DNA from: Saccoglossus kowalevskii
Taxonomy: Eukaryota; Hemichordata; Enteropneusta; Harrimaniidae
Assembly: GCF_000003605.2 (NCBI RefSeq)
Contig: NW_003157409.1
Coordinates: 1-37,206 of the forward strand
Direction: 5' to 3'
Length of the DNA: 37,206 bases
Shown piece by piece: positions 1 to 33,170 of this stretch. Within the stretch, counting starts at the first letter, position 1. Each line of letters starts with the position of its first letter. Below the pieces are notes generated by a model. It made no database searches. It saw only the letters and a list, made by a program, of their open reading frames with translations, and had not been told where the DNA came from. The translations under genes and the position numbers were made by a program.

Positions 1-1136
1 TCACATGCCTCCATTCCAAGCATGGGAGTACACATGCATCTAATCCACACAAGGGAGTACACATGCCTCTAATCCAAACATGGGAGTACGCATGCCTTAA
101 TCCAAACATGGGAGCACACATGCCTCTAATCCAAACATCGGAGTACACATGCCTTAATCCAAACATGGGAGTACATGTGACTCGGGTCAAACATGGGAGT
201 ACATATGCCTCTAATCCAAACATGGGAGTACACATGCCTTAATCCAAACATGGGAGTACATATGACTCGGGTCAAACATGGGAGTACATATGCCTCTAAT
301 CCAAACATGGGAGTACGCATGCCTCCATTCCAAACATGGGAGTACACATGCATCTAATCCACACATGGGAGTACACATGCCTCTAATCCAAACATGGGAG
401 TACACATGCCTCTAATGCAAATATGGTAGGACACACACCTCTAATCCAAACATGGGAGTACACATGCCTTATTCCAAACATGGGAGTACACATGCCTCTA
501 ATCCAAACACGGGAGAACACATGACTCAATCCACACATGCGAGTACATATGACTCAGGTCAAACATGGGAGTGCATATGCCTCTAATCCAAACATGGGAG
601 TACACATGCCTCTATTCTAAACATGGGAGTACATATGACTCTATTCCAAACATGGGAGTACATATGCCTCTAATCCAAACATGGGAGTACACGTGCCTTA
701 ATCCAAACATGGGAGTACATATGACTCGGGTCAAACATGGGAGTACATATGCCTCTAATCCAATCATGGGAGTACACATGCCTCCATTCCAAACATGGGA
801 GTACACATGCATCTAATCCACACAAGGAGTACACATGCCTCTAATCCAAACATGGGAGTACACATGCCTTATTCCAAACATGGGAGTACACATGCCTCTA
901 ATCCAAACACGGGAGAACACATGACTCAATCCAAACATGCGAGTACATATGACTCAGGTCAAACATGGGAGTGCATATGCCTCTAATCCAAACATGGGAG
1001 TACACATGCCTCTATTCCAAACATGGAGGTACACAGCTATCTCATACAAACACGGGAGTACACATGCTACTAATCCAATTATGGGAGTACATATGCCTAT
1101 AATCAAAACATGGGAGTACACATGCCTCTAATCCAA
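1..1136. repeat. HOR-A-derived block, rearranged
   Basis: The window opens with HOR-A monomers 19-23. A new A unit starts at 135 (acatcggag monomer). Its first three monomers are doubled, adding 85 bp relative to the matching block at 35640. The unit runs to about 840, with one extra monomer between 15 and 16 as in the copy near 2200. It then jumps back to monomers 9-13. A short HOR-B piece at about 1011-1107 carries the cagctatctcatac and gctactaatcc variants. A one-base loss occurs at about 828 (acaagg for acaaggg). No gene is present. Confidence 0.8.
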
Positions 1137-1795
1137 ACATCGGAGTACATGTGCCTTAATCCAAACATGGGAGTACATATGACTCGGGTCAAACATGGGA
1201 GTACATATGCCTCTAATCCAAACATGGGAGTACGCATGCCTCCATTCCAAACATGGGAGTACACATGCATCTAATCCACACATGGGAGTACACATGCCTC
1301 TAATCCAAACATGGGAGTACACATGCCTCTAATGCAAACATGGTAGGACACACACCTCTAATCCAAACATGGGAGTACACATGCCTTATTCCAAACATGG
1401 GAGTACACATGCCTCTAATCCAAACACGGGAGAACACATGACTCAATCCAAACATGCGAGTACATATGACTCAGGTCAAACATGGGAGTGCATATGCCTC
1501 TAATCCAAACATGGGAGTACACATGCCTCTATTCTAAACATGGGAGTACATATGACTCTATTCCAAACATGGGAGTACACATGCCTTAATCCAAACATGG
1601 GAGTACATATGACTCGGGTCAAACATGGGAGTACATATGCCTCTAATCCAATCATGGGAGTACACATGCCTCCATTCCAAGCATGGGAGTACACATGCAT
1701 CTAATCCACACAAGGGAGTACACATGCCTCTAATCCAAACATGGGAGTACACATGCCTTAATCCAAACATGGGAGCACACATGCCTCTAATCCAA
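1137..1795. repeat. HOR-A reference unit, 23-mer of 659 bp
   Basis: I parsed this unit completely into 23 monomers. Monomers 1, 2, 9, 11, 12, 16, 17 and 22 are 28 bp and the rest 29 bp, which sums to 659. Landmarks in order are: 1 acatcggag; 2 and 17 gactcgggtcaa; 4 gtacgcatgc; 5 and 20 gcatctaatccac; 8 acatggtaggacacac; 9 ccttattccaa; 11 acacgggagaac; 12 acatgcgag; 14 ctctattctaa; 19 tcatggg; 20 gcatggg; 21 acaaggg; 23 gggagcacac. The next unit begins at exactly 1796. The length is not a multiple of three, which argues against coding. Confidence 0.92.
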
Positions 1796-2434
1796 ACATC
1801 GGAGTACATGTGCCTTAATCCAAACATGGGAGTACATATGACTCGGGTCAAACATGGGAGTACATATGCCTCTAATCCAAACATGGGAGTACGCATGCCT
1901 CCATTCCAAACATGGGAGTACACATGCATCTAATCCACACATGGGAGTACACATGCCTCTAATCCAAACATGGGAGTACACATGCCTCTAATGCAAACAT
2001 GGTAGGACACACACCTCTAATCCAAACATGGGAGTACACATGCCTTATTCCAAACATGGGAGTACACATGCCTCTAATCCAAACACGGGAGAACACATGA
2101 CTCAATCCAAACATGCGAGTACATATGACTCAGGTCAAACATGGGAGTGCATATGCCTCTAATCCAAACATGGGAGTACACATGCCTCTATTCTAAACAT
2201 GGGAGTACATATGACTCTATTCCAAACATGGGAGTACATATGCCTCTAATCCAAACATGGGAGTACACATGCCTTAATCCAAACATGGGAGTACATATGA
2301 CTCGGGTCAAACATGGGAGTACATATGCCTCTAATCCAATCATGGGAGTACACATGCCTCCATTCCAAACATGGGAGTACACATGCATCTAATCCACACA
2401 AGGGAGTACACATGCCTCTAATCCAAACATGGGA
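1796..2434. repeat. HOR-A unit, truncated on the right
   Basis: This is the second tandem A unit. It follows monomers 1-21, with one extra gtacatatgc monomer inserted after monomer 15 (about 2225-2253). At about 2425 it switches into cassette C instead of completing monomers 22-23. Its long-range partner is at 28406. No gene is present. Confidence 0.85.
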
Positions 2435-2944
2435 GCACACTTGCCTATAATCCAAACATGGGAGTGCATATGCCTCTAATCTAAACATGGGAGTACATAT
2501 GCCTCTAATCCAAACATGGGAGTGCATATGCCTCAAATCCAAACACGGGAGTGCATATGCCTCTAATCTAAACATTAGAGTACATATGCCTCTAATCCAA
2601 ACATGGGAGTGCATATGCCTCAAATCCAAACACGGGAGTACACATGCCTCTTATCCAAACATAGGAGTACACATACCTCTAATGCAAACATGGGAGTACG
2701 TATGCCTATAATCCAAACATGGGAGTACACGTGCCTTAATCCAAACATGGGAGTACACATGCCTTAATCCAAAAATGAGAGTACACATGCCTCTAATCCA
2801 AACACGGGAGAACACATGCCTCAATCCAAACATGCGAGTACATATGACTCAGGTCAAACATGGGAGTGCATATGCCTCTAATCCAAACATGGGAGTACAC
2901 ATGCCTCTATTCTAAACATGGGAGTACATATGACTCTATTCCAA
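2435..2944. repeat. Cassette C, with an 87-bp (3-monomer) tandem duplication
   Basis: This is a distinct monomer set, with gtgcatatgc cores, ctctaatctaa and ctcaaatccaa tails, and an acattagag monomer. Three monomers (87 bp) are tandemly doubled at 2464-2550 and 2551-2637. Because 87 is a multiple of three, frames stay open here on both strands without being genes. The block ends with A-like monomers 11-15. The only other copy in the window is at about 29045-29554. Confidence 0.8.
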
Positions 2945-3318
2945 ACATGGGGGTACACATGCTTCTAATCCAAACATGGGAGTACACATGGCACTAATCC
3001 AAACATGGGAGTGCACATGCCTCTATTCCAAATATGGGAGAGCACATGCCTCTAATGGAAACATAGGAGTACACATGCATCTAATCCAAACATGGGAGTA
3101 CACATGCCTCTATACCAAACTGGGAATAAACATGGCTCTAATTCAAACATTGGGATGCATAAACCTCTAATCCAAACATGGGAGTACACATGCCTTAATC
3201 CAAACATGGGAGTACATAATACTCGGGTCAAACATGGGAGTATATATGCCTCTAATCCAAACATGGGAGTACACATGCCTCTATTCTAAACATGGGAGTA
3301 CATATGACTCTATTCCAA
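2945..3318. repeat. B start plus shortened cassette D
   Basis: The block starts with the acatgggggtac monomer that marks HOR-B starts, then moves into D-type monomers (gggatgcataaacc, gtatatatgcc). Compared with its copy at 29555 it lacks two monomers (58 bp) after about 3112. Both copies share the rare tacataatactcggg variant, at about 3213 and 29881, which shows common descent. Confidence 0.75.
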
Positions 3319-4472
3319 ACATGGGGGTACACATGCTTCTAATCCAAACATGGGAGTACACATGCCTCTAATCCAAACATGGGAGTGTACATGCCTCTAT
3401 TCCAAAGATGGGAGAGCACATGACTCTAATGGAAACATGGGAGTGCACATGCCTTTAATCCAAACATGGAAGTACACATGGCTCTAATGCAAACATGGGA
3501 GTACACATGCCTCTATACCAATCTGGGAATAAACATGGCTCTAATTCAAACACGGGAGTGCATAAGCCTCTAATGCAAACATGGGAGTGCATATTCCTCA
3601 AATCCAAACATGGGAGTACACATGCCTCTAATCCAAACATATGTGTACACATGCCTCTAATCCAAACATGGCAGTACATATGCCTATAATCAAAACGTAG
3701 GAGTTCACATGCCTCTATACCAAACTGGGAATAAACATGGCTCTAATTCAAACATGGGAGTGCATAAGCCTCTAATGCAAACATAGGAGTACACATACCT
3801 CTAATGCAAACATGGGAGTACACATGTCTCTCATCCAACATGGGAGTACACATGCCTTTATACCAAACATGGGAGTGCACATGCCTCTATTCCAAACATG
3901 GAGGTACACAGCTATCTCATACAAACACGGGAGTACACATGCCTCTAATCCAAACATGGGAGTACATATGCCTCTATTCCAAACATGGAAGTGCACATGC
4001 CTCTAATCCAAACATGGGAGTACATATACCTCTAATCCAAACAAGGGAGTACATATGCCTCTAATCCAAACATGGAAGTGCACATGCCTCTAATCCAAAC
4101 ATGGGAGTACACATGCCTCTAATGCAAACATGGAAGTACACATGTCTCTCATACAAACATGGGAGTACACATGCTACTAATCCAATTATGGGAGTACATA
4201 TGCCTCTAATCCAAACATGGGAGTACGCATGCCTCCATTCCAAACATGGGAGTACACATGCATCTAATCCACACATGGGAGTACACATGCCTTATTCCAA
4301 ACATGGGAGTACACATGCCTCTAATCCAAACACGGGAGAACACATGACTCAATCCAAACATGCGAGTACATATGACTCAGGTCAAACATGGGAGTGCATA
4401 TGCCTCTAATCCAAACATGGGAGTACACATGCCTCTATTCTAAACATGGGAGTACATATGACTCTATTCCAA
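3319..4472. repeat. HOR-B unit, 1,154-bp version
   Basis: The unit starts at the acatgggggtac monomer, and the next B start is exactly 1,154 bp on. Diagnostic monomers include agatgggagagcac, a 28-bp tctgggaataaac form, actgggaataaac, acatatgag, cagctatctcatac, acaaggg, gctactaatcc and ttatggg. It also holds an A-like stretch (gtacgcatgc, then gcatctaatccac). A one-base deletion at about 3838 (tcatccaacatggg) is shared with the distant copy 23531-24684. No gene is present. Confidence 0.85.
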
Positions 4473-5599
4473 ACATGGGGGTACACATGCTTCTAATCCA
4501 AACATGGGAGTACACATGCCTCTAATCCAAACATGGGAGTGTACATGCCTCTATTCCAAAGATAGGAGAGCACATGACTCTAATGGAAACATGGGAGTGC
4601 ACATGCCTTTAATCCAAACATGGAAGTACACATGGCTCTAATGCAAACATGGGAGTACACATGCCTCTATACCAATCTGGGAATAAACATGGCTCTAATT
4701 CAAACACGGGAGTGCATAAGCCTCTAATGCAAACATAGGAGTGCATATTCCTCAAATCCAAACATGGGAGTACACATGCCTCTAATCCAAACATATGAGT
4801 ACACATGCCTCTAATCCAAACATGGCAGTACATATGCCTATAATCAAAACGTGGGAGTACACATGCCTCTATACCAAACTGGGAATAAACATGGCTCTAA
4901 TTCAAACATGGGAGTGCATAAGCCTCTAATGCAAACATATGAGTACACATGCCTCTAATGCAAACATGGGAGTACACATGTCTCTCATCCAAACATGGGA
5001 GTAAACATGCCTTTATACCAAACATGGGAGTGCACATGCCTCTATTCCAAACATGGAGGTACACAGCTATCTCATACAAACACGGGAGTACACATGCCTC
5101 TAATCCAAACATGGGAGTACATATGCCTCTAATCCAAACATGGAAGTGCACATGCCTCTAATCCAAACATGGGAGTACATATACCTCCAATCAAAACAAG
5201 GGAGTACATATGCCTCTAATCCAAACATGGAAGTGCACATGCCTCTAATCCAAACATGGGAGTACACATGCCTCTAATGCTAACATGGAAGTACACATGT
5301 CTCTCATACAAACATGGGAGTACACATGCTACTAATCCAATTATGGGAGTACATATGCCTCTAATCCAAACATGGGAGTACACATGCCTTAATCCAAACA
5401 TGGGAGTACATATGACTCGGGTCAAACATGGGAGTACTTATGCCTCTAATCCAAACATGGGAGTACACATGCCTCCATTCCAAACATGGGAGTACACATG
5501 CATCTAATGCACACATGGGAGTACACATGCCTCTAATCCAAACATGGAAGTACATATGCCTATAATCAAAACATGGGAGTACACATGCCTCTAATCCAA
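4473..5599. repeat. HOR-B run with bridge into HOR-A
   Basis: HOR-B monomers 1-31 are followed by a bridge of A-like monomers: gactcgggtcaa, gtacttatgc, ctccattccaa and gcatctaatgcac. The gtacttatgc monomer is a transversion variant that marks this bridge throughout the window. The segment from 5181, recognisable by cctccaatcaaaac, is shared with 15916 onward. Confidence 0.75.
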
Positions 5600-5970
5600 A
5601 CATCGGAGTACATGTGTCTTAATCCAAACATGGGAGTACATATGACTCGGGTCAAACATGGGAGTACATATGCCTCTAATCCAAACATGGGAGTATGCAT
5701 GCCTCCATTCCAAACATGGGAGTACACATGCATCTAATCCACACATGGGAGTATACACATGCCTCTAATCCAAACATGGGAGTACACATGCCTCTAATGC
5801 AAACATGGTAGGACACACACCTCTAATCCAAACATGGGAGTACACATGCCTTATTCCAAACATGGGAGTACACATGCCTCTAATCCAAACACGGGAGAAC
5901 ACATGACTCAATCCAAACATGCGAGTACATATGACTCAGGTCAAACATGGGAGTGCATATGCCTCTAATC
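5600..5970. repeat. HOR-A fragment, monomers 1-13
   Basis: The fragment starts at an acatcggag monomer with gtgtctt in place of gtgcctt. It has gtatgcatgc where the reference A unit has gtacgcatgc, and a two-base expansion of the core (gtatacacatgc) at 5751-5762. After monomer 13 it joins HOR-B. The same three private variants occur at 16335 and 32957. Confidence 0.8.
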
Positions 5971-6923
5971 CAAACATGGAAGTACACATGGCTCTAATGC
6001 AAACATGGGAGTACACATGCCTCTATACCAATCTGGGAATAAACATGGCTCTAATTCAAACACGGGAGTGCATAAGCCTCTAATGCAAACATAGGAGTGC
6101 ATATTCCTCAAATCCAAACATGGGAGTACACATGCCTCTAATCCAAACATATGAGTACACATGCCTCTAATCCAAACATGGCAGTACATATGCCTATAAT
6201 CAAAACGTGGGAGTACACATGCCTCTATACCAAAATGGGAATAAACATGGCTCTAATTCAAACATGGGAGTGCATAAGCCTCAAATGCAAACATAGGAGT
6301 ACACACCTCTCTAATCCAAACATGGGAGTACACATGCCTTTAATCCAAACATGGAAGTACACATGCCTCTAATGCAAACATGGCAGTACACATGCCTCTA
6401 TACCAAACTGGGAATAAACATGGCTCTAATTCAAACATGGGAGTGCATAAGCCTCAAATGCAAACATAGGAGTACACACCTCTCTAATCCAAACATGGGA
6501 GTACACATGCCTTCAATCCAAACATGGAAGTGCACATGCCTCTAATCCAAACATGGGAGTACACATGCCTCTATTGCAAACATGGAAGTACACATGTCTC
6601 TCATACAAACATGGGAGTACACATGCTACTAATCCAATTATGGGAGTACATATGCCTCTAATCCAAACATGGGAGCACACATGCCTTAATCCAAACATGG
6701 GAGTACACATGCCTTAATCCAAACATGGAAGTGCACATGCCTCTAACCCAAACATGGGAGTACACATGCCTCTAATCCAAACACGGGAGAACACATGACT
6801 CAATCCAAACATGCGAGTACATATGACTCAGGTCAAACATGGGAGTGCATATGCCTCTAATCCAAACATGGGAGTACACATGCCTCTATTCTAAACATGG
6901 GAGTACATATGACTCTATTCCAA
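5971..6923. repeat. HOR-B fragment with a 173-bp tandem duplication
   Basis: HOR-B monomers 6-16 lead into a duplicated six-monomer segment: 6242-6414 and 6415-6587 are 173 bp apart and share gcctcaaatgc followed by acacacctctc. The same 173-bp doubling is found at about 16775-17120. The end is made of A-like monomers 10-15. No gene is present. Confidence 0.75.
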
Positions 6924-7788
6924 ACATGGGGGTACACATGCTTCTAATCCAAACATGGGAGTACACATGCCTCTAATCCAAACATGGGAGTGTACATGCC
7001 TCTATTCCAAAGATGGGAGAGCACATGACTCTAATGGAAACATGGGAGTGCACATGCCTTTAATCCAAACATGGAAGTACACATGGCTCTAATGCAAACA
7101 TGGGAGTACACATGACTCTATACCAATCTGGGAATAAACATGGCTCTAATTCAAACACGGGAGTGCATAAGCCTCTAATGCAAACATAGGAGTGCATATT
7201 CCTCAAATCCAAACATGGGAGTACACATGCCTCTAATCCAAACATATGAGTACACATGCCTCTAATCCAAACATGGCAGTACATATGCCTATAATCAAAA
7301 CGTGGGAGTACACATGCCTCTATACCAAACTGGGAATAAACATGGCTCTAATTCAAACATGGGAGTGCATAAGCCTCTAATGCAAACATAGGAGTACACA
7401 TGCCTCTAATGCAAACATGGGAGTACACATGTCTCTCATCCAAACATGGGAGTACACATGCCTTTATACCAAACATGGGAGTGCACATGCCTCTATTCCA
7501 AACATGGAGGTACACAGCTATCTCATACAAACACGGGAGTACACATGCCTCTAATCCAAACATGGGAGTACATATGCCTCTAATCCAAACATGGAAGCAC
7601 ACATGCCTTAATCCAAACATGGGAGTACACATGCCTCTAATCCAAACACGGGAGAACACATGACTCAATCCAAACATGCGAGTACACATGACTCAGGTCA
7701 AACATGGGAGTGCATATGCCTCTAATCCAAACATGGGAGTACACATGCCTCTATTCTAAACATGGGAGTACATATGACTCAATTCCAA
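6924..7788. repeat. HOR-B unit, 865-bp short version
   Basis: The block runs from one acatgggggtac monomer to the next, a distance of 865 bp. Compared with the 1,096-bp unit it lacks the run from gtacatatacc through ttatggg, about eight monomers. It joins near 7590 at a hybrid gaagcacac monomer, which looks like the product of unequal exchange. Confidence 0.8.
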
Positions 7789-9412
7789 ACATGGGGGTAC
7801 ACATGCTTCTAATCCAAACATGGGAGTACACATGCCTCTAATCCAAACATGGGAGTGTACATGCCTCTATTCCAAAGATGGGAGAGCACATGACTCTAAT
7901 GGAAACATGGGAGTGCACATGCCTTTAATCCAAACATGGAAGTACACATGGCTCTAATGCAAACATGGGAGTACACATGCCTTTATACCAATCTGGGAAT
8001 AAACATGGCTCTAATTCAACCACGGGAGTGCATAAGCCTCTAATGCAAACATAGGAGTGCATATTCCTCAAATCCAAACATGGGAGTACACATGCCTCTA
8101 ATCCAAACATATGAGTACACATGCCTCTAATCCAAACATGGCAGTACGTATGCCTATAATCAAAACGTGGGAGTACACATGCCTCTATACCAAACTGGGA
8201 ATAAACATGGCTCTAATTCAAACATGGGAGTGCATAAGCCTCTAATGCAAACATAGGAGTACACATGCCTCTAATGCAAACATGGGAGTACATATGCCTC
8301 TAATCCAAACATGGAAGTGCACATGCCTCTAATCCAAACATGGGAGTACATATACCTCTAATCCAAACAAGGGAGTACATATGCCTCTAATCCAAACATG
8401 GAAGTGCACATGCCTCTAATCCAAACATGGGAGTACACATGCCTCTAATGCTAACATGGAAGTACACATGTCTCTCATACAAACATGGGAGTACACATGC
8501 TACTAATCCAATTATGGGAGTACATATGCCTCTAATCCAAACATGGGAGTACACATGCCTTAATCCAAACATGGGAGTACATATGACTCGGGTCAAACAT
8601 GGGAGTACTTATGCCTCTAATCCAAACATGGGAGTACACATGCCTCCATTCCAAACATGGGAGTTCACATGCATCTAATGCACACATGGGAGTACACATG
8701 CCTCTAATCCAAACATGGAAGTACATATACCTCTAATCCAAACAAGGGAGTACATATGCCTCTAATCCAAACATGGAAGTGCACATGCCTCTAATCCAAA
8801 CATGGGAGTACATATACCTCTAATCCAAACAAGGGAGTACATATGCCTCTAATCCAAACATGGAAGTGCACATGCCTCTAATCCAAACATGGGAGTACAC
8901 ATGCCTCTAATCCAAACATGGAAGTACACATGTCTCTCATACAAACATGGGAGTACACATGCTACTAATCCAATTATGAGAGTACACATGCCTCTAATGC
9001 AAACATGGGAGGACACATGTCTCTCATCCAAACATGGGAGTACACATGCCTTTATACCAAACATGGGAGTGCACATGCCTCTATTCCAAACATGGAGGTA
9101 CACAGCTATCTCATACAAACACGGGAGTACACATGCTACTAATCCAATTATGGGAGTACATACATGTATGCCTCTAATCCAAACATGGGAGTACACATGC
9201 CTTAATCCAAACATGGGAGTACATATGACTCGGGTCAAACATGGGAGTACTTATGCCTCTAATCCAAACATGGGAGTACACATGCCTCCATTCCAAACAT
9301 GGGAGTACACATGTATCTGATGCACACATGGGAGTACACATGCCTCTAATCCAAACATGGGAGTACATATGCCTATAATCAAAACATGGGAGTACACATG
9401 CCTCTAATCCAA
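7789..9412. repeat. HOR-B run with internal duplications
   Basis: A B start is followed by a shortened series in which the gtgcac, gtacatatacc and acaaggg trio is repeated several times (about 8320-8880). The part at 7740-8714 matches 20512-21486 at a constant spacing of 12,772 bp. From about 8850 it matches 26525 onward. At 9156-9171 the core is expanded by six bases. Confidence 0.75.
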
Positions 9413-10504
9413 ACATCGGAGTACATGTGCCTTAATCCAAACATGGGAGTACGTATGACTCGGGTCAAACATGGGAGTACATATGCCTCTAATCCAAACA
9501 TGGGAGTACGCATGCCTCCATTCCAAACATGGGAGTACACATGCATCTAATCCACACATGGGAGTACACATGCCTCTAATCCAAACATGGGAGTACACAT
9601 GCCTCTAATGCAAACATGGTAGGACACACACCTCTAATCCAAACATGGGAGTACACATGCCTTATTCCAAACATGGGAGTACACATGCCTCTAATCCAAA
9701 CACGGGAGAACACATGACTCAATCCAAACATGCGAGTACATATGACTCAGGTCAAACATGGGAGTGCATATGCCTCTAATCCAAACATGGGAGTACACAT
9801 GCCTCTATTCTAAACATGGGAGTACATATGACTCTATTCCAAACATGGGAGTACATATGCCTCTAATCCAAACATGGGAGTACACATGCCTTAATCCAAA
9901 CATGGGAGTACATATGACTCGGGTCAGACATGGGAGTACATATGCCTCTAATCCAATCATGGGAGTACACATGCCTCCATTCCAAGCATGGGAGTACACA
10001 TGCATCTAATCCACACAAGGGAGTACACATGCCTCTAATCCAAACATGGGAGTACACATGCCTTAATCCAATTATGGGAGTACACATGCCTCTAATGCAA
10101 ACAAGGGAGTACACATGTCTCTCATCCAAACATGGGAGTACACATGCCTTTATACCAAACATGGGAGTGCACATGCCTCTATTCCAAACATGGAGGTACA
10201 CAGCTATCTCATACAAACACGGGAGTACACATGCTACTAATCCAATTATGGGAGTACATATGCCTCTAATCCAAACATGGGAGTACACATGCCTTAATCC
10301 AAACATGGGAGTACATTTGACTCGGGTCAAACATGGGAGTACTTATGCCTCTAATCCAAACATGGGAGTACACATGCCTCCATTCCAAACATGGGAGTAC
10401 ACATGCATCTAATCCACACATGGGAGTACACATGCCTCTAATCCAATCATGGGAGTACATATGCCTATAATCAAAACATGGGAGTACACATGCCTCTAAT
10501 CCAA
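9413..10504. repeat. HOR-A unit with inserted HOR-B segment
   Basis: The A unit starts with acatcggag and keeps the extra monomer after 15. At about 10070 it switches to B monomers (tgcaaacaaggg, ctctcatcc, cagctatctcatac, gctactaatcc). It then returns through the gtacttatgc bridge to the next A start at 10505. A 1,092-bp spacing between A starts results. No gene is present. Confidence 0.78.
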
Positions 10505-11163
10505 ACATCGGAGTACATGTGCCTTAATCCAAACATGGGAGTACATATGACTCGGGTCAAACATGGGAGTACATATGCCTCTAATCCAAACATGGGAGTA
10601 CGCATGCCTCCATTCCAAACATGGGAGTACACATGCATCTAATCCACACATGGGAGTACACATGCCTCTAATCCAAACATGGGAGTACACATGCCTCTAA
10701 TGCAAACATGGTAGGACACACACCTCTAATCCAAACATGGGAGTACACATGCCTTATTCCAAACATGGGAGTACACATGCCTCTAATCCAAACACGGGAG
10801 AACACATGACTCAATCCAAACATGCGAGTACATATGACTCAGGTCAAACATGGGAGTGCATATGCCTCTAATCCAAACATGGGAGTACACATGCCTCTAT
10901 TCTAAACATGGGAGTACATATGACTCTATTCCAAACATGGGAGTACACATGACTTAATCCAAACATGGGAGTACATATGACTCGGGTCAAACATGGGAGT
11001 ACATATGCCTCTAATCCAATCATGGGAGTACACATGCCTCCATTCCAAGCATGGGAGTACACATGCATCTAATCCACACAAGGGAGTACACATGCCTCTA
11101 ATCCAAACATGGGAGTACACATGCCTTAATCCAAACATGGGAGCACACATGCCTCTAATCCAA
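10505..11163. repeat. HOR-A complete unit, 659 bp
   Basis: This is a full 23-mer; the next acatcggag start is exactly 659 bp on. Monomer 16 carries the private variant gacttaatcc (10951-10960). That variant is shared with the unit at 27088 and absent from the unit at 1137 and from the unit directly after 27088. Confidence 0.9.
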
Positions 11164-11880
11164 ACATCGGAGTACATGTGCCTTAATCCAAACATGGGAG
11201 TACATATGACTCGGGTCAAACATGGGAGTACATATGCCTCTAATCCAAACATGGGAGTACGCATGCCTCCATTCCAAACATGGGAGTACACATGCATCTA
11301 ATCCACACATGGGAGTACACATGCCTCTAATCCAAACATGGGAGTACACATGCCTCTAATGCAAACATGGTAGGACACACACCTCTAATCCAAACATGGG
11401 AGTACACATGCCTTATTCCAAACATGGGAGTACACATGCCTCTAATCCAAACACGGGAGAACACATGACTCAATCCAAACATGCGAGTACATATGACTCA
11501 GGTCAAACATGGGAGTGCATATGCCTCTAATCCAAACATGGGAGTACACATGCCTCTAATGCAAACATGGTAGGACACACACCTCTAATCCAAACATGGG
11601 AGTACACATGCCTTATTCCAAACATGGGAGTACACATGCCTCTAATCCAAACACGGGAGAACACATGACTCAATCCAAACATGCGAGTACATATGACTCA
11701 GGTCAAACATGGGAGTGCATATGCCTCTAATCCAAACATGGGAGTACACATGCCTCTATTCCAAACATGGAGGTACACAGCTATCTCATACAAACACGGG
11801 AGTACACATGCTACTAATCCAATTATGGGAGTACATATGCCTATAATCAAAACATGGGAGTACACATGCCTCTAATCCAA
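11164..11880. repeat. HOR-A unit with 200-bp tandem duplication
   Basis: Monomers 1-13 are followed by a return to monomer 7. The acatggtaggacacac monomer therefore occurs at 11365 and again at 11565, exactly 200 bp apart (seven monomers, three of them 28 bp). The unit then exits through a HOR-B piece (cagctatctcatac, gctactaatcc, ttatggg). The whole arrangement recurs 990 bp downstream. Confidence 0.82.
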
Positions 11881-12066
11881 ACATGGGGAAGTACATATGC
11901 CTTTAATCCAAAACATGGGAAGGTGCACATGACTCGGGTCAAACATGGGGAGTACATATACCTTTAATTCCAAAACAAGGGGAGTACATATGCCTTTAAT
12001 CCAAACAATGGAAGTGCACATGCCTTTTAATCCAAAACATGGGAGTACACATGCCTTTTAATGCAC
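11881..12066. repeat. Six monomers with clustered homopolymer insertions
   Basis: Six monomers occupy 186 bp where about 173 are expected. The extra bases sit in runs: acatgggga, aaaacatggg, cttttaatcc, acaagggg and acaatgg. No other stretch of the window averages 31 bp per monomer. The block lies exactly between two copies of a 990-bp repeat. It may be a poorly polished assembly join; real decay of a few monomers is the alternative. Confidence 0.8.
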
Positions 12067-13071
12067 ACATGGGAGTACACATGCCTCTAATCCAAACATG
12101 GGAGTACATATGCCTATAATCAAAACATGGGAGTACACATGCCTCTAATCCAAACATCGGAGTACATGTGCCTTAATCCAAACATGGGAGTACATATGAC
12201 TCGGGTCAAACATGGGAGTACATATGCCTCTAATCCAAACATGGGAGTACGCATGCCTCCATTCCAAACATGGGAGTACACATGCATCTAATCCACACAT
12301 GGGAGTACACATGCCTCTAATCCAAACATGGGAGTACACATGCCTCTAATGCAAACATGGTAGGACACACACCTCTAATCCAAACATGGGAGTACACATG
12401 CCTTATTCCAAACATGGGAGTACACATGCCTCTAATCCAAACACGGGAGAACACATGACTCAATCCAAACATGCGAGTACATATGACTCAGGTCAAACAT
12501 GGGAGTGCATATGCCTCTAATCCAAACATGGGAGTACACATGCCTCTAATGCAAACATGGTAGGACACACACCTCTAATCCAAACATGGGAGTACACATG
12601 CCTTATTCCAAACATGGGAGTACACATGCCTCTAATCCAAACACGGGAGAACACATGACTCAATCCAAACATGCGAGTACATATGACTCAGGTCAAACAT
12701 GGGAGTGCATATGCCTCTAATCCAAACATGGGAGTACACATGCCTCTATTCCAAACATGGAGGTACACAGCTATCTCATACAAACACGGGAGTACACATG
12801 CTACTAATCCAATTATGGGAGTACATATGCCTCTAATCCAAACATGGGAGTACACATGCCTTAATCCAAACATGGGAGTACATATGACTCGGGTCAAACA
12901 TGGGAGTACTTATGCCTCTAATCCAAACATGGGAGTACACATGCCTCCATTCCAAACATGGGAGTACACATGCATCTAATGCACACATGGGAGTACACAT
13001 GCCTCTAATCCAATCATGGGAGTACATATGCCTATAATCAAAACATGGGAGTACACATGCCTCTAATCCAA
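12067..13071. repeat. Second copy of the 990-bp A/B arrangement
   Basis: An A start at 12154 lies 990 bp after the one at 11164. The 200-bp duplication is repeated too, with acatggtaggacacac at 12355 and 12555. The exit through cagctatctcatac and gctactaatcc matches as well. It then passes through the gtacttatgc bridge toward the A start at 13072. No gene is present. Confidence 0.8.
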
Positions 13072-13190
13072 ACATCGGAGTACATGTGCCTTAATCCAAA
13101 CATGGGAGTACATATGACTCGGGTCAAACATGGGAGTACATATGCCTCTAATCCAAACATGGGAGTACGCATGCCTCCATTCCAAACATG
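13072..13190. repeat. HOR-A fragment, monomers 1-4
   Basis: The fragment starts with acatcggag and stops after the gtacgcatgc, ctccattccaa monomer. It is joined to a D-like monomer beginning acatggtagtac. Confidence 0.75.
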
Positions 13191-13906
13191 GTAGTACACA
13201 TGCCTCTAATCCAAACACGGGAGTACACATGCCTTAATCCAAACATGAGTGTACTCATGGCTTTAGTGCAAATATGGAGTGCACTTGCCTCTAATTCAAA
13301 CATAGGAATACACATGGCTCTATTCCAAGCATGGGACTACTCATGCCTCTATTCCAAACATGGAGGTACACAACTATCTCATACAAACACGGGAGTACAC
13401 ATGCCTCTAATCCAAACATGGGAGTACATATGCCTCTAATCCAAACATGGAAGTGCACATGCCTCTAATCCAAACATGGGAGTACATATACCTCTAATCC
13501 AAACAAGGAAGTACATATGCCTCTAATCCAAACATGGAAGTGCACATGCCTCTAATCCAAACATGGGAGTACACATGCCTGTAATGCAAACATAGAAGTA
13601 CACATGTCTCTCATACAAATATGGGAGTACACATGCTACTAATCCAATTATGGGAGTACATATGCCTCTAATCCAAACATGGGAGTACACATGCCTTAAT
13701 CCAAACATGGGAGTACATATGACTCGGGTCAAACATGGGAGTACTTATGCCTCTAATCCAAACATGGGAGTACACATGCCTCCATTCCAAACATGGGAGT
13801 ACACATGCATCTCATGCACACATGGGAGTACACATGCCTCTAATCCAAACATGGGAGTACATATGCCTATAATCAAAACATGGGAGTACACAAGCCTCTA
13901 ATCCAA
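13191..13906. repeat. Partial cassette D, HOR-B and bridge
   Basis: D monomers (gtgtactcatggc, then a 28-bp atatggagtgcacttgcc, gaatacacatggc, gactactcatgcc) lead into HOR-B monomers 21-31. The gactcgggtcaa and gtacttatgc bridge follows. No gene or unique sequence is visible. Confidence 0.72.
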
Positions 13907-14028
13907 ACATCGGAGTACACGTGCCTTAATCCAAACATGGGAGTACATATGACTCGGGTCAAACATGGGAGTACATATGCCTCTAATCCAAACATGGGAG
14001 TACGCATGCCGCCATTCCAAACATGGGA
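13907..14028. repeat. HOR-A fragment, monomers 1-4
   Basis: This is an acatcggag start with gtacacgtgcc, so it carries a CACGTG. It runs to gtacgcatgc with a one-base change (ccgccattcc) and then joins cassette D at a gtacacatggcac monomer. Confidence 0.72.
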
Positions 14029-15085
14029 GTACACATGGCACTAATCCAAACATGGGAGTGCACATGCCTCTATTCCAAATATGGGAGAGCACATGCCTCT
14101 AATGGAAACATGGGAGTACACATGCCTCTAATCCAAACATGGGAGTACACATGCCTCTATTCCAAACATGGAGGTACACAGCGATCTCATGCAAACATGG
14201 GAGTACACATGCCTCTATACCAAACTGGGAATAAACATGGCTCTAATTCAAACATTGGGATGCATAAACCTCTAATCCAAACATGGGAGTACACATGCCT
14301 TAATCCAAACATGGGAGTACATATGACTCGGGTCAAACATGGGAGTATATATGCCTCTACTCCAAACATGGGAGTACACATGCCTCTATTCCAAACATGG
14401 GAGTACACATGCCTATAATCCAAACATGGAAGTACACATGCCTTAATCCAAACATGAGTGTACTCATGGCTCTATTGCAAATATGGAGTGCACTTGCCTC
14501 TAATTCAAACATAGGAATACACATGGCTCTATTCCAAACATGGGACTACACATGCCTCTATTCCAAACATGGAGGTACACAGCTATCTCATACAAACACG
14601 GGAGTACACATGCCTCTAATCCAAACATGGGAGTACATATGCCTCTAATCCAAACATGGAAGTGCACATGCCTCTAATCCAAACATGGGAGTACATATAC
14701 CTCTAATCCAAACAAGGGAGTACATATGCCTCTAATCCAAACATGGAAGTGCACATGCCTCTAATCCTAACATGGGAGTACACATGCCTCTAATGCAAAC
14801 ATGGAAGTACACATGTCTCTCATACAAACATGGGAGTACACATGCTACTAATCCAATTATGGGAGTACATATGCCTCTAATCCAAACATGGGAGTACACA
14901 TGCCTTAATCCAAACATGGGAGTACACATGCCTCTAATCCAAACACGGGAGAACACATGACTCAATCCAAACATGCGAGTACATATGACTCAGGTCAAAC
15001 ATGGGAGTGCATATGCCTCTAATCCAAACATTGGAGTACACATGCCTCTATTCTAAACATGGGAGTACATATGACTCAATTCCAA
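14029..15085. repeat. Cassette D followed by HOR-B
   Basis: This is the most regular D copy: gtacacatggcac, agagcacatgcc, cagcgatctc, actgggaataaac, attgggatgcataaacc, gtatatatgcc, gtgtactcatggc, atatggagtgc, gaatacacatggc and gactacacatgcc. HOR-B monomers 21-38 follow. It matches 17832-18776 at spacing 3,809 bp, dropping to 3,802 bp after the deletion cluster in that copy. No gene is present. Confidence 0.8.
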
Positions 15086-15549
15086 ACATGGGGGTACACA
15101 TGCTTCTAATCCAAACATGGGAGTACACATGCCTCTAATCCAAACATGGGAGTGTACATGCCTCTATTCCAAAGATGGGAGAGCACATGACTCTAATGGA
15201 AACATGGGAGTGCACATGCCTTTAATCCAAACATGGAAGTACACATGGCTCTAATGCAAACATGGGAGTACACATGCCTCTATACCAATTTGGGAATAAA
15301 CATGGCTCTAATCCAAACACGGGAGTACGTATGCCTATAATCAAAAACGTGGGAGTACACATACCTCTATACCAAACATGGGAATAAACATGTCTCTAAT
15401 TCAAACATGGGAGTGCATAAGCCTCTAATGCAAACATAGGAGTACACATGCCTCTAATGCAAACATGGGAGTACATATGCCTCTAATCCAAACATGGAAG
15501 TGCACATGCCTCTAATCCAAACATGGGAGTACATATACCTCTAATCCAA
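15086..15549. repeat. Shortened HOR-B unit
   Basis: The block goes from acatgggggtac through tctgggaataaac to gtacgtatgcc, then jumps to the gtacatatgcc, gtgcac and gtacatatacc series. An extra A in caaaaacgtggg at about 15335 is a single-base length change not seen in other copies. Confidence 0.72.
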
Positions 15550-16311
15550 ACAAGGGAGTACATATGCCTCTAATCCAAACATGGAAGTGCACATGCCTCT
15601 AATCCAAACATGGGAGTACACATGCCTCTAATGCTAACATGGAAGTACACATGTCTCTCATACAAACATGGGGGTACACATGCTACTAATCCAATTATGG
15701 GAGTACATATGCCTCTAATCCAAACATGGGAGTACACATGCCTTAATCCAAACATGGGAGTACATATGACTCGGGTCAAACATGGGAGTACTTATGCCTC
15801 TAATCCAAACATGGGAGTACACATGCCTCCATTCCAAACATGGGAGTTCACATGCATCTAATGCACACATGGGAGTACACATGCCTCTAATCCAAACATG
15901 GAAGTACATGTACATATACCTCCAATCAAAACAAGGGAGTACATATGCCTCTAATCCAAACATGGAAGTGCACATGCCTCTAATCCAAACATGGGAGTAC
16001 ACATGCCTCTAATGCTAACATGGAAGTACACATGTCTCTCATACAAACATGGGAGTACACATGCTACTAATCCAATTATGGGAGTACATATGCCTCTAAT
16101 CCAAACATGGGAGTACACATGCCTTAATCCAAACATGGGAGTACATATGACTCGGGTCAAACATGGGAGTACTTATGCCTCTAATCCAAACATGGGAGTA
16201 CACATGCCTCCATTCCAAACATGGGAGTACACATGCATCTAATGCACACATGGGAGTACACATGCCTCTAATCCAAACATGGAAGTACATATGCCTATAA
16301 TCAAAACATGG
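15550..16311. repeat. 381-bp tandem duplication, two copies
   Basis: Copies at 15550-15930 and 15931-16311 both start at an acaaggg monomer. Each holds 13 monomers. The first has a six-base core expansion at its end (gtacatgtacatatac, 15904-15919), which accounts for 381 bp. Only scattered substitutions separate the copies over most of the length, for example gagttcac against gagtacac. The two differ at the very end, where the second passes into the atgcctataatc monomer. Confidence 0.85.
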
Positions 16312-16700
16312 GAGTACACATGCCTCTAATCCAAACATCGGAGTACATGTGTCTTAATCCAAACATGGGAGTACATATGACTCGGGTCAAACATGGGAGT
16401 ACATATGCCTCTAATCCAAACATGGGAGTATGCATGCCTCCATTCCAAACATGGGAGTACACATGCATCTAATCCACACATGGGAGTATACACATGCCTC
16501 TAATCCAAACATGGGAGTACACATGCCTCTAATGCAAACATGGTAGGACACACACCTCTAATCCAAACATGGGAGTACACATGCCTTATTCCAAACATGG
16601 GAGTACACATGCCTCTAATCCAAACACGGGTGAACACATGACTCAATCCAAACATGCGAGTACATATGACTCAGGTCAAACATGGGAGTGCATATGCCTC
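16312..16700. repeat. HOR-A fragment, monomers 1-13
   Basis: This is the partner of 5600-5970 at spacing 10,735 bp, with the same gtgtctt, gtatgcatgc and gtatacacatgc (16486-16497) variants. It joins HOR-B after monomer 13. Confidence 0.8.
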
Positions 16701-17800
16701 TAATCCAAACATGGAAGTACACATGGCTCTAATGCAAACATGGGAGTACACATGCCTCTATACCAATCTGGGAATAAACATGGCTCTAATTCAAACATGG
16801 GAGTGCATAAGCCTCAAATGCAAACATAGGAGTACACACCTCTCTAATCCAAACATGGGAGTACACATGCCTTTAATCCAAACATGGAAGTACACATGCC
16901 TCTAATGCAAACATGGCAGTACACATGCCTCTATACCAAACTGGGAATAAACATGGCTCTAATTCAAACATGGGAGTGCATAAGCCTCAAATGCAAACAT
17001 AGGAGTACACACCTCTCTAATCCAAACATGGGAGTACACATGCCTTTAATCCAAACATGGAAGTGCACATGCCTCTAATCCAAACATGGGAGTACACATG
17101 CCTCTATTGCAAACATGGAAGTACACATGTCTCTCATACAAACATGGGAGTACACATGCTACTAATCCAATTATGGGAGTACATATGCCTCTAATCCAAA
17201 CATGGGAGCACACATGCCTTAATCCAAACATGGGAGTACACATGCCTCTAATCCAAACACGGGAGAACACATGACTCAATCCAAACATGCGAGTACACAT
17301 GACTCAGGTCAAACATGGGAGTGCATATGCCTCTAATCCAAACACGGGAGTACACATGCCTCTATTCTAAACATAGGAGTACACATACCTCTAATGCAAA
17401 CATGGGAGTGCACGTGCCTTAATCCAAACATGGGAGTACATATGACTCGGGTCAAACATGGGAGTACATATGCCTCTAATCCAAACATGGGAGTACACAT
17501 GCCTCCATTCCAAACATGGGAGTACACATGCATCTAATCCACACATGGGAGAACACATGCCTCTAATCCAAACTTGGGAGTACACATGCCTTAATGCAAA
17601 CATGGGAGAACACATGCCTCTAATCCAAACTTGGGAGAACACATGCCTCTAATCCAAACACGGGAGAACACATGCCTCAATCCAAACATGCGAGTACATA
17701 TGACTCACGTCAAACATGGGAGTGCATATGCCTCTAATCCAAACATGGGAGTACACATGCCTCTATTCTAAACATGGGAGTACATATGACTCTATTCCAA
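16701..17800. repeat. HOR-B pieces, 173-bp duplication and a gagaacac-rich stretch
   Basis: The 173-bp six-monomer duplication recurs at about 16775-17120. From 17333 an A-like series begins. Between about 17540 and 17680 four monomers carry gagaacac instead of gagtacac and two carry aacttggg, a local spread of variants seen nowhere else in the window. A gcacgtgcc monomer is at about 17411. No gene is present. Confidence 0.72.
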
Positions 17801-18887
17801 ACATGGGGGTACATATGCTTCTAATACAAACATGGGAGTACACATGGCACTAATCCAAACATGGGAGTGCACATGCCTCTATTCCAACTATGGGAGAGCA
17901 CATGCCTCTAATGGAAACATGGGAGTACACATGCCTCTAATCCAAACATGGGAGTACACATGCCTCTATTCCAAACATGGAGGTACACAGCGATCTCATG
18001 CAAACATGGGAGTACACATGCCTCTATACCAAACTGGGAATAAACATGGCTCTAATTCAAACATTGGGATGCATAAACCTCTAATCCAAACATGGGAGTA
18101 CACATGCCTTAATCCAAACATGGGAGTACATATGACTCGGGTCAAACATGGGAGTATATATGCCTCTAATCCAAACATGGGAGTACACATGTCTCTATTC
18201 CAAACATGGTAGTACACATGCCTCTAATCCAAACATGTGAGTACACATGCCTTAATCCAAACATGGGTGTACTCATGGCTCTAGTGCAATATGGAGTGCA
18301 CTTGCCTCTAATTCAACATAGGAATACACATGGCTCTATTCCAAGCATGGACTACTCATGCCTCTATTCAACATGAGTACACAGCTATCTCATACAAACA
18401 CGGGAGTACACATGCCTCTAATCCAAACATGGGAGTACATATGCCTCTAATCCAAACATGGAAGTGCACATGCCTCTATTCCAAACATGGGAGTACATAT
18501 ACCTCTAATCCAAACAAGGGAGTACATATGCCTCTAATCCAAACATGGAAGTGCACATGCCTCTAATCCTAACATGGGAGTACACATGCCTCTAATGCAA
18601 ACATGGAAGTACACATGTCTCTCATACAAACATGGGAGTACACATGCTACTAATCCAATTATGGGAGTACATATGCCTCTAATCCAAACATGGGAGTACA
18701 CATGCCTTAATCCAAACATGGGAGTACACATGCCTCTAATCCAAACACGGGAGAACACATGACTCAATCCAAACATGCGAGTACATATGACTCAGGTCAA
18801 ACATGGGAGTGCATATGCCTCTAATCCAAACATTGGAGTACACATGCCTCTATTCTAAACATGGGAGTACATATGACTCAATTCCAA
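17801..18887. repeat. Cassette D and HOR-B, with a deletion cluster
   Basis: The order matches 14029-15085. Between about 18283 and 18375 seven bases are missing relative to that copy, all from short runs: caatatgg, ttcaacatagg, catggact, then attcaacatgag. A later B segment restores the normal order. Confidence 0.78.
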
Positions 18888-19905
18888 ACATGGGGGTACA
18901 CATGCTTCTAATCCAAACATGGGAGTACACATGCCTCTAATCCAAACATGGGAGTGTACATGCCTCTATTCCAAAAATGGGAGAGCACATGACTCTAATG
19001 GAAACATGGGAGTGCACATGCCTTTAATCCAAACATGGAAGTACACATGGCTCTAATGCAAACATGGGAGTACACATGCCTCTATACCAATCTGGGAATA
19101 AACATGGCTCTAATTCAAACACGGGAGTGCATAAGCCTCTAATGCAAACATAGGAGTGCATATTCCTCAAATCCAAACATGGGAGTACACATGCCTCTAA
19201 TCCAAACATATGAGTACACATGCCTCTAATCCAAACATGGCAGTACATATGCCTCTAATGCAAACATGGCAGTACACATGCCTCTATACCAAACTGGGAA
19301 TAAACATGGCTCTAATTCAAACATGGGAGTGCATAAGCCTCTAATGCAAACATAGGAGTACACATACCTCTAATGCAAACATGGGTGTACACATGTCTCT
19401 CATCCAAACATGGGAGTAAACATGCCTTTATACCAAACATGGGAGTGCACATGCCTCTATTCCAAACATGGAGGTACACAGCTGTCTCATACAAACACGG
19501 GAGTACACATGCCTCTAATCCAAACATGGGAGTACATATGCCTCTAATCCAAACATGGAAGTGCACATGCCTCTAATCCAAACATGGGAGTACATATACC
19601 TCTAATCCAAACAAGGGAGTACATATGCCTCTAATCCAAACATGGAAGTGCACATGCCTCTAATCCTAACATGGGAGTACACATGCCTCTAATGCAAACA
19701 TGGAAGTACACATGTCTCTCATACAAACATGGGAGTACACATGCTACTAATCCAATTATGGGAGTACATATGCCTCTAATCCAAACATGGGAGTACACAT
19801 GCCTTAATCCAAACATGGGAGTACACATGCCTCTAATCCAAACACGGGAGAACACATGACTCAATCCAAACATGCGAGTACATATGACTCGCGTCACACA
19901 TGGGA
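18888..19905. repeat. HOR-B unit with gactcgcgtcac ending
   Basis: The block starts at acatgggggtac and follows B order through acatatgag, cagctgtctcatac and ttatggg. It ends with the rare gactcgcgtcac monomer (around 19886). It lacks the atgcctataatc and acgtggg monomers and has a second ggcagtac monomer instead. Confidence 0.75.
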
Positions 19906-20560
19906 GTACACATGCCTCTAATCCAAACATGGCAGTACATATGCCTCTAATGCAAACATGGCAGTACACATGCCTCTATACCAAACTGGGAATAAACATG
20001 GCTCTAATTCAAACATGGGGAGTGCATAAGCCTCTAATGCAAACATAGGAGTACACATACCTCTAATGCAAACACGGGAGTACACATGTCTCTCATCCAA
20101 ACATGGGAGTAAACATGCCTTTATACCAAACATGGGAGTGCACATGCCTCTATTCCAAACATGGAGGTACACAGCTGTCTCATTCAACATGGGAGTACAC
20201 CATGCTACTAATCCAATTATGGGAGTACATATGCCTCTAATCCAAACATGGGAGTACACATGCCGTAATCCAAACATGGGAGTACACATGCCTCTAATCC
20301 AAACACGGGAGAACACATGACTCAATCCAAACATGCGAGTACATATGACTCGCGTCACACATGGGAGTACACATGCCTCTAATCCAAACATGGCAGTACA
20401 TATGCCTCTAATGCAAACATGGCAGTACACATGCCTCTATACCAAACTGGGAATAAACATGGCTCTAATTCAAACATGGGAGTGCATAAGCCTCTAATGC
20501 AAACATAGGAGTACACATGCCTCTATTCTAAACATGGGAGTACATATGACTCAATTCCAA
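19906..20560. repeat. 461-bp partial duplication with small indels
   Basis: The gactcgcgtcac monomer recurs exactly 461 bp later (19890 against 20351), with the same flanking order, so about 16 monomers are duplicated. This copy holds length changes: an extra G in acatggggagtgc at about 20018, a lost A in cattcaacatggg and an extra C in gtacaccatgc near 20183-20205. A distant copy at about 32099-32370 lacks these. Confidence 0.75.
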
Positions 20561-21542
20561 ATATGGGGGTACACATGCTTCTAATCCAAACATGGGAGTA
20601 CACATGCCTCTAATCCAAACATGGGAGTGTACATGCCTCTATTCCAAAGATGGGAGAGCACATGACTCTAATGGAAACATGGGAGTGCACATGCCTTTAA
20701 TCCAAATATGGAAGTACACATGGCTCTAATGCAAACATGGGAGTACACATGCCTCTATACCAATCTGGGAATAAACATGGCTCTAATTCAAACACGGGAG
20801 TGCATAAGCCTCTAATGCAAACATAGGAGTGCATATTCCTCAAATCCAAACATGGGAGTACACATGCCTCTAATCCAAACATATGAGTACACATGCCTCT
20901 AATCCAAACATGGCAGTACGTATGCCTATAATCAAAACGTGGGAGTACACATGCCTCTATACCAAACTGGGAATAAACATGGCTCTAATTCAAACATGGG
21001 AGTGCATAAGCCTCTAATGCAAACATAGGAGTACACATGCCTCTAATGCAAACATGGGAGTACATATGCCTCTAATCCAAACATGGAAGTGCACATGCCT
21101 CTAATCCAAACATGGGAGTACATATACCTCTAATCCAAACAAGGGAGTACATATGCCTCTAATCCAAACATGGAAGTGCACATGCCTCTAATCCAAACAT
21201 GGGAGTACACATGCCTCTAATGCTAACATGGAAGTACACATGTCTCTCATACAAACATGGGAGTACACATGCTACTAATCCAATTATGGGAGTACATATG
21301 CCTCTAATCCAAACATGGGAGTACACATGCCTTAATCCAAACATGGGAGTACATATGACTCGGGTCAAACATGGGAGTACTTATGCCTCTAATCCAAACA
21401 TGGGAGTACACATGCCTCCATTCCAAACATGGGAGTACACATGCATCTAATGCACACATGGGAGTACACATGCCTCTAATCCAAACATGGAAGTACATAT
21501 GCCTATAATCAAAACATGGGAGTACACATGCCTCTAATCCAA
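20561..21542. repeat. HOR-B unit, first part of a 1,009-bp tandem repeat
   Basis: The B start carries atatgggggtac. From about 20650 the series is repeated 1,009 bp later. The region 20512-21486 also matches 7740-8714 with few differences. Its end uses the gtacttatgc bridge. No gene is present. Confidence 0.78.
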
Positions 21543-22403
21543 ATATCGGAGTACATGTGTCTTAATCCAAACATGGGAGTACATATGACTCGGGTCAAAC
21601 ATGGGAGTACTTATGCCTCTAATCCAAACATGGGAGTACACATGCCTCCATTCCAAACATGGGAGAGCACATGACTCTAATGGAAACATGGGAGTGCACA
21701 TGCCTTTAATCCAAATATGGAAGTACACATGGCTCTAATGCAAACATGGGAGTACACATGCCTCTATACCAATCTGGGAATAAACATGGCTCTAATTCAA
21801 ACACGGGAGTGCATAAGCCTCTAATGCAAACATAGGAGTGCATATTCCTCAAATCCAAACATGGGAGTACACATGCCTCTAATCCAAACATATGAGTACA
21901 CATGCCTCTAATCCAAACATGGCAGTACGTATGCCTATAATCAAAACGTGGGAGTACACATGCCTCTATACCAAACTGGGAATAAACATGGCTCTAATTC
22001 AAACATGGGAGTGCATAAGCCTCTAATGCAAACATAGGAGTACACATGCCTCTAATGCAAACATGGGAGTACATATGCCTCTAATCCAAACATGGAAGTG
22101 CACATGCCTCTAATCCAAACATGGGAGTACATATACCTCTAATCCAAACAAGGGAGTACATATGCCTCTAATCCAAACATGGAAGTGCACATGCCTCTAA
22201 TCCAAACATGGGAGTACACATGCCTCTAATGCTAACATGGAAGTACACATGTCTCTCATACAAACATGGGAGTACACATGCTACTAATCCAATTATGGGA
22301 GTACATATGCCTCTAATCCAAACATGGGAGTACACATGCCTTAATCCAAACATGGGAGTACACATGACTCTAATCCAAACATGGGAGTACTTATGCCTCT
22401 ATT
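21543..22403. repeat. A stub joined to second copy of the 1,009-bp repeat
   Basis: Four A or bridge monomers starting at atatcggag run into a hybrid monomer at about 21658, where acatgggag is fused to the agcacatgactctaatgg tail of HOR-B monomer 4. From there the sequence repeats 20650 onward at spacing 1,009 bp (35 monomers, several of them 28 bp). The hybrid monomer is a clear recombination junction. Confidence 0.8.
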
Positions 22404-23128
22404 CCAAACATGGGAGTACACAGCGTTCTCATTCCAAACATGGGACTACACATGCCTCTATACCAAACTGGGAATAAACATGGCTCTAATTCAAACATTG
22501 GTATGCATAAACCTATAATCCAAACATGGGAGTACACATGCCTTAATCCAAACATGGGAGTACATATGACTCGGGTCAAACATGGGAGTATATATGCCTC
22601 TAATCCAAACATGGGAGTACACATGCCTCTATTCCAAACATGGGAGTACACATGCCTCTCATCCAAACATGGGAGTACACATGCCTTAATCCAAACATGG
22701 GTGTACTCATGGCTCTAGTGCAAATATGGAGTGCACTTGCCTCTAATTCAAACATAGGAATACACATGGCTCTATTCCAAACATGGGACTACACATGCCT
22801 CTATTCCAAACATGGAGGTACACAGCTATCTCATACAAACACGGGAGTACACATGCCTCTAATCCAAACATGGGAGTACATATGCCTCTAATCCAAACAT
22901 GGAAGTGCACATGCCTCTAATCCAAACATGGGAGTACATATACCTCTAATCCAAACAAGGGAGTACATATGCCTCTAATCCAAACATGGAAGTGCACATG
23001 CCTCTAATCCAAACATGGGAGTACACATGCCTCTAATGCACACATGGGAGTACACATGCCTCTAATCCAAACATGGGAGTACATATGCCTATAATCAAAA
23101 CATGGGAGTACACATGCCTCTAATCCAA
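22404..23128. repeat. Cassette D and HOR-B bridge
   Basis: The D order is cagcgttctc, actgggaataaac, gtatgcataaacc, gtatatatgcc, gtgtactcatggc, atatggagtgc and gactacacatgcc, followed by the B series to the A start at 23129. It matches 29724 onward at spacing 7,320 bp. Confidence 0.78.
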
Positions 23129-32956: not shown

Positions 32957-33170
32957 ACATCGGAGTACATGTGTCTTAATCCAAACATGGGAGTACATAT
33001 GACTCGTGTCAAACATGGGAGTACATATGCCTCTAATCCAAACATGGGAGTATGCATGCCTCCATTCCAAACATGGGAGTACACATGCATCTAATCCACA
33101 CATGGGAGTATACACATGCCTCTAATCCAAACATGGGAGTACACATGCCTCTAATGCAAACATGGTAGGA
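32957..33170. repeat. HOR-A fragment, monomers 1-7
   Basis: It carries the gtgtctt, gtatgcatgc and gtatacacatgc (33108-33119) variants of the 5600 and 16335 fragments, plus gactcgtgtc in monomer 2. It joins HOR-B after the acatggtagg monomer. Confidence 0.78.

Follow-up and report, generated by a model that had tools for sequence, protein, structure and literature searches.

A satellite array of 29-bp monomers and the place of a 659-bp, 23-monomer higher-order repeat within it

The stretch of DNA analysed here (37,206 nt, hereafter the window) carries a short tandem repeat in which a set of 23 variant monomers recurs in the same order, and the question that this raises is whether the 659-bp set was the unit by which the repeat was amplified or is one layer of a more complicated arrangement. 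The whole window proved to be a single satellite array, apparently non-coding. TRF returned one single row with a period of 29, running from end to end as an unbroken tandem array with no foreign insert within it, and comparison of the window with itself by BLAST (1e-5, low-complexity filter off) gave no hit to minus-strand copies, so that the DNA consists of long head-to-tail tandem repeats of the kind that define satellites. Segmentation at the monomer phase yielded 1,292 monomers, 1,003 of them 29 bp and 270 of them 28 bp long; the remaining 19, which include the fragment at either end of the array, have other lengths. They represent 258 distinct sequences, and their mean identity to the consensus is 90%. 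At 11871-12056 a few irregular monomers stand close together, 31-32 bp long and carrying additional bases; they make up 5 of the 19 odd-length monomers, and the spot may be a local degenerate patch; positions 11888-12057 found no partner in the best-partner painting described below. Two identical 35-bp monomers (9138-9172 and 26813-26847) share a 6-bp insertion and sit inside a block copy, 8710-9884 and 26385-27558, marking that copy event.

The observed/expected CpG ratio of the window is 0.15, largely because the consensus has no CpG. The consensus monomer and a spaced two-monomer pattern had no exact match in IMG/VR or in GTDB species genomes, and the 659-bp unit had no blastn match in plasmids or phages, collections from which records of the window's own genome may be missing; together with the low CpG, this is compatible with a eukaryotic host, which is the likely source. 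A coding function was rejected: the 178 open reading frames of at least 60 aa (the longest 170 aa) are scattered and overlapping on both strands inside the repeats, and were judged to be by-products of these, since the mixture of 28- and 29-bp monomers shifts the frame. No tRNA or Rfam match was found in the window, and one 58-base stretch of two monomers, folded as a DNA hairpin, was no better than its shuffles (z -0.16). A CRISPR array, whose repeats may also measure 28-29 bp, was ruled out, as the repeats abut directly, with no spacers. The CENP-B box motif had no exact match in the window; with up to 2 mismatches it occurred at 65 places compared with 16 by chance, and with 1 mismatch at one of these (9450), but the places are not independent, since the same few variant monomers keep recurring. 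The variant monomer that bears TCGGG resembles a degenerate CENP-B box (for example at 9450-9464), and some of the 65 places fall in another variant monomer; given the dependence between copies, the resemblance is only a lead. The box is not universal in any case, being reported absent from the human Y array (PMC8997354).

Table 1. Features of the window, with coordinates, strand and the evidence for each
Feature	Coordinates	Strand	Basis
Head-to-tail satellite array, 29-bp unit, consensus CACATGCCTCTAATCCAAACATGGGAGTA	2..37204	+	TRF, monomer segmentation, BLAST
659-bp, 23-monomer higher-order unit, reference copy	1137..1795	+	BLAST, monomer counts
659-bp copy, 99.8% to reference	10505..11163	+	BLAST
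659-bp copy, 99.8% to reference; 100% to the 10505 copy on ungapped columns	27088..27746	+	BLAST, ungapped columns
659-bp copy, 99.5% to reference	27747..28405	+	BLAST
689-bp 24-mer variant	28406..29094	+	BLAST
Further 24-mer variants (687-689 bp)	220-906, 1796-2484, 9413-10100, 35640-36326	+	BLAST
659-bp tandem order, site 1, about 2.2 copies, 95.4%; 1796 copy is a 689-bp 24-mer	826..2267	+	base-level alignment
659-bp tandem order, site 2, about 2.0 copies, 98.0%; order departs after 11558	10248..11558	+	base-level alignment
659-bp tandem order, site 3, about 3.1 copies, 98.5%	26842..28877	+	base-level alignment
Tandem pair, period about 1,154 bp, 97.8%	3164..5389	+	alignment
Tandem pair, period 1,154 bp, 99.0%	23354..25600	+	alignment
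Tandem pair, period about 1,096 bp, 97.5%	24458..26694	+	alignment
Tandem pair, period 989 bp, 98.9%	11070..12876	+	alignment
Tandem pair, period 1,009 bp, 99.1%	20587..22370	+	alignment
Longest block copy, 98.3% over 2,296 bp, offset 26,610	826..3120 vs 27436-29730	+	
Block copy, 2.2 kb, 98.8%	23376-25621 vs 3164-5410	+	

The order of the monomers is far from random. The longest string of monomers that recurs exactly comprises 38 of them, compared with 3 or 4 in 50 monomer shuffles, tandem sets of at least 8 monomers never arose in 100 shuffles, and once the current monomer is known, the entropy of the one that follows is 1.31 bits as against 3.30 bits in 100 shuffles. The second-order entropy goes in the opposite direction to the first-order one (0.60 bits versus 0.37 in shuffles), an excess that we take to reflect undersampling of monomer pairs, nearly all shuffled pairs being unique, and to which no weight was given. 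Splitting into monomers therefore gave a reproducible order, as the preliminary description of this DNA had anticipated, and its seven starting points for the 23-monomer unit (1137, 1796, 10505, 11164, 27088, 27747 and 28406) do recur in that order far beyond what shuffling produces. The monomer count of the reference unit, 15 monomers of 29 bp plus 8 of 28 bp, also confirmed the composition given there for the 659 bp. Inside this unit, a stretch of 120 bp beginning at 1152 is repeated at 97.5% identity after 430 bp, or 15 monomers, and the 23-mer therefore reads as 15 + 8, that is, as a nested structure itself.

The seven copies differ in length and in closeness to the reference. Those at 10505, 27088 and 27747 align to the reference gap-free at 99.5-99.8%, which makes four such copies at 99.5% or above when the reference is counted, whereas the 1796 and 28406 copies run to 24 monomers (689 bp), and the copy at 11164 is only 92.4% (BLAST) or 95.0% (ungapped columns) identical to the reference. 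The gap-free units are thus more alike than the monomers, which average 90% to their consensus, as expected of a higher-order repeat. With the 659-bp unit as query, BLAST gave 643 rows in the window, of which the 13 that reach 250 bp in length and 92% identity were kept, the other 630 being shorter or more diverged. The members of the family so defined start at 220, 1137, 1796, 9413, 10505, 11164, 12154, 27088, 27747, 28406, 30449, 35037 and 35640; five consist of 24 monomers (687-689 bp) and eight of 23 (652-661 bp), and these filtered members cover 8,658 bp, or 23.3% of the window.

Tandem arrangement of the unit is limited in extent. A strict census at the monomer level, which considered sets of 2 to 89 and required 80% or more of the monomers to match exactly, detected only tandem sets of 7 and 23, the latter at one place (27078-28739). 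Base-level alignment gives three sites with 659-bp tandem order (Table 1), with no more than about 3.1 copies in a row, so that the long unbroken run of a regular higher-order array is not seen. Moreover, the 659-bp period is one of many: tandem-type alignments, defined by an offset between 200 bp and 1.35 times their length, a length of at least 250 bp and an identity of at least 94%, numbered 15, with periods of about 200, 381, 460, 604, 659, 864, 989, 1009, 1096 and 1154 bp. When aligned bases are counted over offsets of less than 3 kb, 659 bp leads narrowly (2,813 bases, compared with 2,674 at about 1,154-1,156 bp and 2,120 at 1,096 bp); it also tops a local ungapped scan that started at a lag of 20, so that the peak suggested by the preliminary description is present. 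A 7-monomer (200-bp) tandem layer with 98.5% identity occurs at 11307-11770 and again at 12297-12760, carried inside the 989-bp tandem pair.

The closest matches within the window lie mostly between distant blocks of the same strand. Pairs of at least 500 bp on the same strand cover 97.5% of the window at 95% identity or more, and 25.1% at 99% identity. Over 1.3 kb, the regions 10259-11558 and 26842-28141 are 99.69% identical, more than the 98.5% between adjacent copies within site 3; this match and the longest block copy (Table 1) indicate that the 659-bp tandem sites are linked to each other by larger block copies. Among block pairs of 300 bp or longer the median length is about 0.5 kb, and a best-partner painting of the window gave 53 segments over 50 bp. 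Exact repeats occur as well, 190 pairs of them at least 200 bp long and one measuring 1,111 bp. A register count found 294 of 294 alignments in phase; as a 29-bp repeat cannot align at 95% unless it is in phase, this outcome is almost inevitable and was given no weight.

The window was cut into 296 tiles of 250 bp, and for each the best partner was sought: its median identity was 99.6% and its median distance 12.8 kb. Partners drawn at random gave 11.1 kb, with medians between 9.1 and 13.0 kb in 200 draws. Best partners beyond 10 kb made up 64.5%, slightly above the largest of 200 random draws (62.8%), an excess that may stem from the search, which settled ties by the first partner met and so can lengthen distances. 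A tie-averaged monomer version, covering the 84.1% of tiles in which 6 or more of 9 monomers matched (15.9% being left out), agrees: the median distance is 444 monomers, and 14.9% of partners lie no more than 104 monomers away. Identity thus does not decay with distance within the window, and best partners are placed as at random. The best partner lies 657-661 bp away for 3 of the 296 tiles, and any partner of at least 95% identity at 655-663 or 684-692 bp exists for 28 of them. The proposal that the whole 23-mer was the unit of amplification therefore stands locally, the set being in tandem at site 3, but does not extend to the array in general: hardly any tile has its best partner one unit away, the sites are joined by larger copies, and the periods of 1,154 and 1,096 bp are covered nearly as well. 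The 23-mer is the clearest layer of a patchwork and not its master unit.

What has to be accounted for, then, is a tandem array with ordered monomers, blocks repeated on the same strand, monomer phase kept and no decay of identity with distance. We favour, with a probability of roughly 0.6, a satellite scrambled by homology-driven block copying, plus some tandem duplication. Nested duplication would have made ordered sets of variant monomers (with lags of 7, 15, 23/24 and about 34-40 monomers), after which blocks of roughly 0.3-2.3 kb would have been copied within the array to destinations independent of distance, with some tandem duplication added on top. Since 1,273 of the 1,292 monomers are 28 or 29 bp long, block joins seldom break the monomer phase, and this, together with the lack of minus-strand hits, points to homology-guided events. 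The route may have been homology-guided repair, either break-induced replication with template switching or gene conversion. Such a pathway is plausible because a break-induced replication model has been put forward for nested higher-order repeats (PMC8997354) and because extensive change of human centromeric arrays is reported to require RAD52 and PIF1 (PMC11034957). The array could belong to pericentromeric or other heterochromatin. A more far-reaching version, in which at least 37 kb are dominated by distance-independent, same-strand, phase-keeping copying of blocks of about 0.3-2 kb, not by exchange between neighbours, and the higher-order sets including the 23-mer are by-products of copy tracts, is put forward only tentatively.

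Forward simulations with mutation were run for arrays of 1,292 monomers and for windows of a 5,000-monomer array under three modes, namely tandem duplication plus deletion, dispersed block replacement and an even mix of the two, over a grid of four length laws, two mutation rates and six seeds per setting that was guided by a first grid with two seeds per setting. By thresholds placed around the observed values after these were known, 39 of 96 dispersed runs were accepted, as against 4 of the 96 mixed runs and 1 of the 96 with tandem events alone; among dispersed blocks averaging 25 monomers, 19 of 24 runs were accepted. Dispersed copying did not reproduce every measure, however. In the larger array it gave a mean best-partner identity of 0.58-0.76 compared with 0.82 observed, and dispersed runs overall had fewer close partners (means of 0.01-0.05 within 45 monomers versus 0.10 observed), and some tandem duplication must therefore be added.

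The same shortage of close partners can be read in favour of unequal crossing-over between sister chromatids, by which tandem duplications of widely varied length would have made the whole layout and dispersed copying would be needless. The 15 tandem-type alignments, with their spread of periods, are what such a process would leave, and the single tandem-only run that was accepted had log-uniform lengths. It was one run among 96, though; tandem-only events averaging 25 monomers placed 53-97% of best partners within 104 monomers, compared with 15% observed, and long events produced colinear runs that were mostly too long, so that we regard tandem duplication as the sole process as unlikely. Whether the 23-mer could nevertheless be the amplification unit of a regular higher-order satellite, of which the window would be the degenerate edge, has to be judged from the features that single it out: the four gap-free copies, the three tandem sites, the top coverage below 3 kb and its standing as the only set of at least 8 monomers in the strict census. 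With only 23% of the window in the filtered 23/24-mer family and so few tiles pairing at one unit length, this appears very improbable.

Assembly error is a serious rival to block copying. Reads of a large and more regular array, joined in the wrong order, would scramble the blocks and erase the distance signal; the window is all repeat, with no unique anchor, the median block length of about 0.5 kb would fit, and misjoins would yield the same distance-free mosaic statistics. Short reads alone would probably have collapsed the exact 1,111-bp repeat and the 190 exact pairs, all of which are kept apart, and the assembly is therefore probably not from short reads alone, while the 53 painted segments imply many changes of partner for a long-read assembly. 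We consider an artefact unlikely and retain homology-driven block copying with some tandem duplication as the preferred reading. Models of satellite evolution differ in whether copies spread to neighbours (unequal exchange) or jump within the array (break-induced replication, conversion), and 29-bp monomers in 258 variants mark copy tracts finely enough that this question could be measured. If block copying here is indeed independent of distance, the array would be a readable record of the tract lengths of break-induced replication or conversion. The satellite family is otherwise ordinary, and the distance-free patchwork is the part that may interest specialists.

No description of a 29-bp satellite with a higher-order repeat was found in open-licence PMC, where a '29-bp repeat' satellite or minisatellite was likewise absent among the matches listed, four monomer pieces of 15-16 bases had no match in the text, and chicken W XhoI repeats gave no match either. 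Three of the matches were of other kinds: '29 bp' in PMC4053949 denotes an indel by which cichlid centromere repeats differ and not a monomer, '659 bp' in PMC10153287 belongs to a 9,659-bp fungal unit, and a 10-base monomer piece in PMC4545945 is a primer for a safflower microsatellite marker. One survey (PMC10153287) holds that most species lack rich higher-order structure. The preliminary description had called a 23-mer of so short a monomer unusual, a view weakened by higher-order repeats of short units already in print. Cervid satellite I and bovine satellite 1.715 are composed of short subrepeats, of 31 bp, which make up a unit of about 1 kb (PMC2760882); compared by description, the monomer here is 29/28 bp instead of 31 bp and no single long unit dominates. 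The 39-bp repeat of hornerin on human chromosome 1 is also a short unit with nested levels of about 0.35, 0.7 and 1.4 kb, its quartic higher-order repeat measuring 1,410 bp (PMC9584774), but it lies within a gene and its 39 bp are whole codons, whereas the 28/29-bp mixture here would shift any reading frame. With alpha satellite the array shares variant monomers in fixed order, amplification of sets and a greater likeness between counterparts of different sets than between neighbours (PMC5615363), but the alpha monomer is about 171 bp, and here each site holds only 2-3 tandem copies, the best copies lie kilobases away and the window has no strict CENP-B box. In organisation the array also resembles the complex higher-order repeats known from mouse, bovids, insects and others, with irregular, interspersed sets of monomers (PMC5615363), from which it differs in having no inverted monomers and no foreign insert; it is best described as satellite DNA with complex higher-order repeats.
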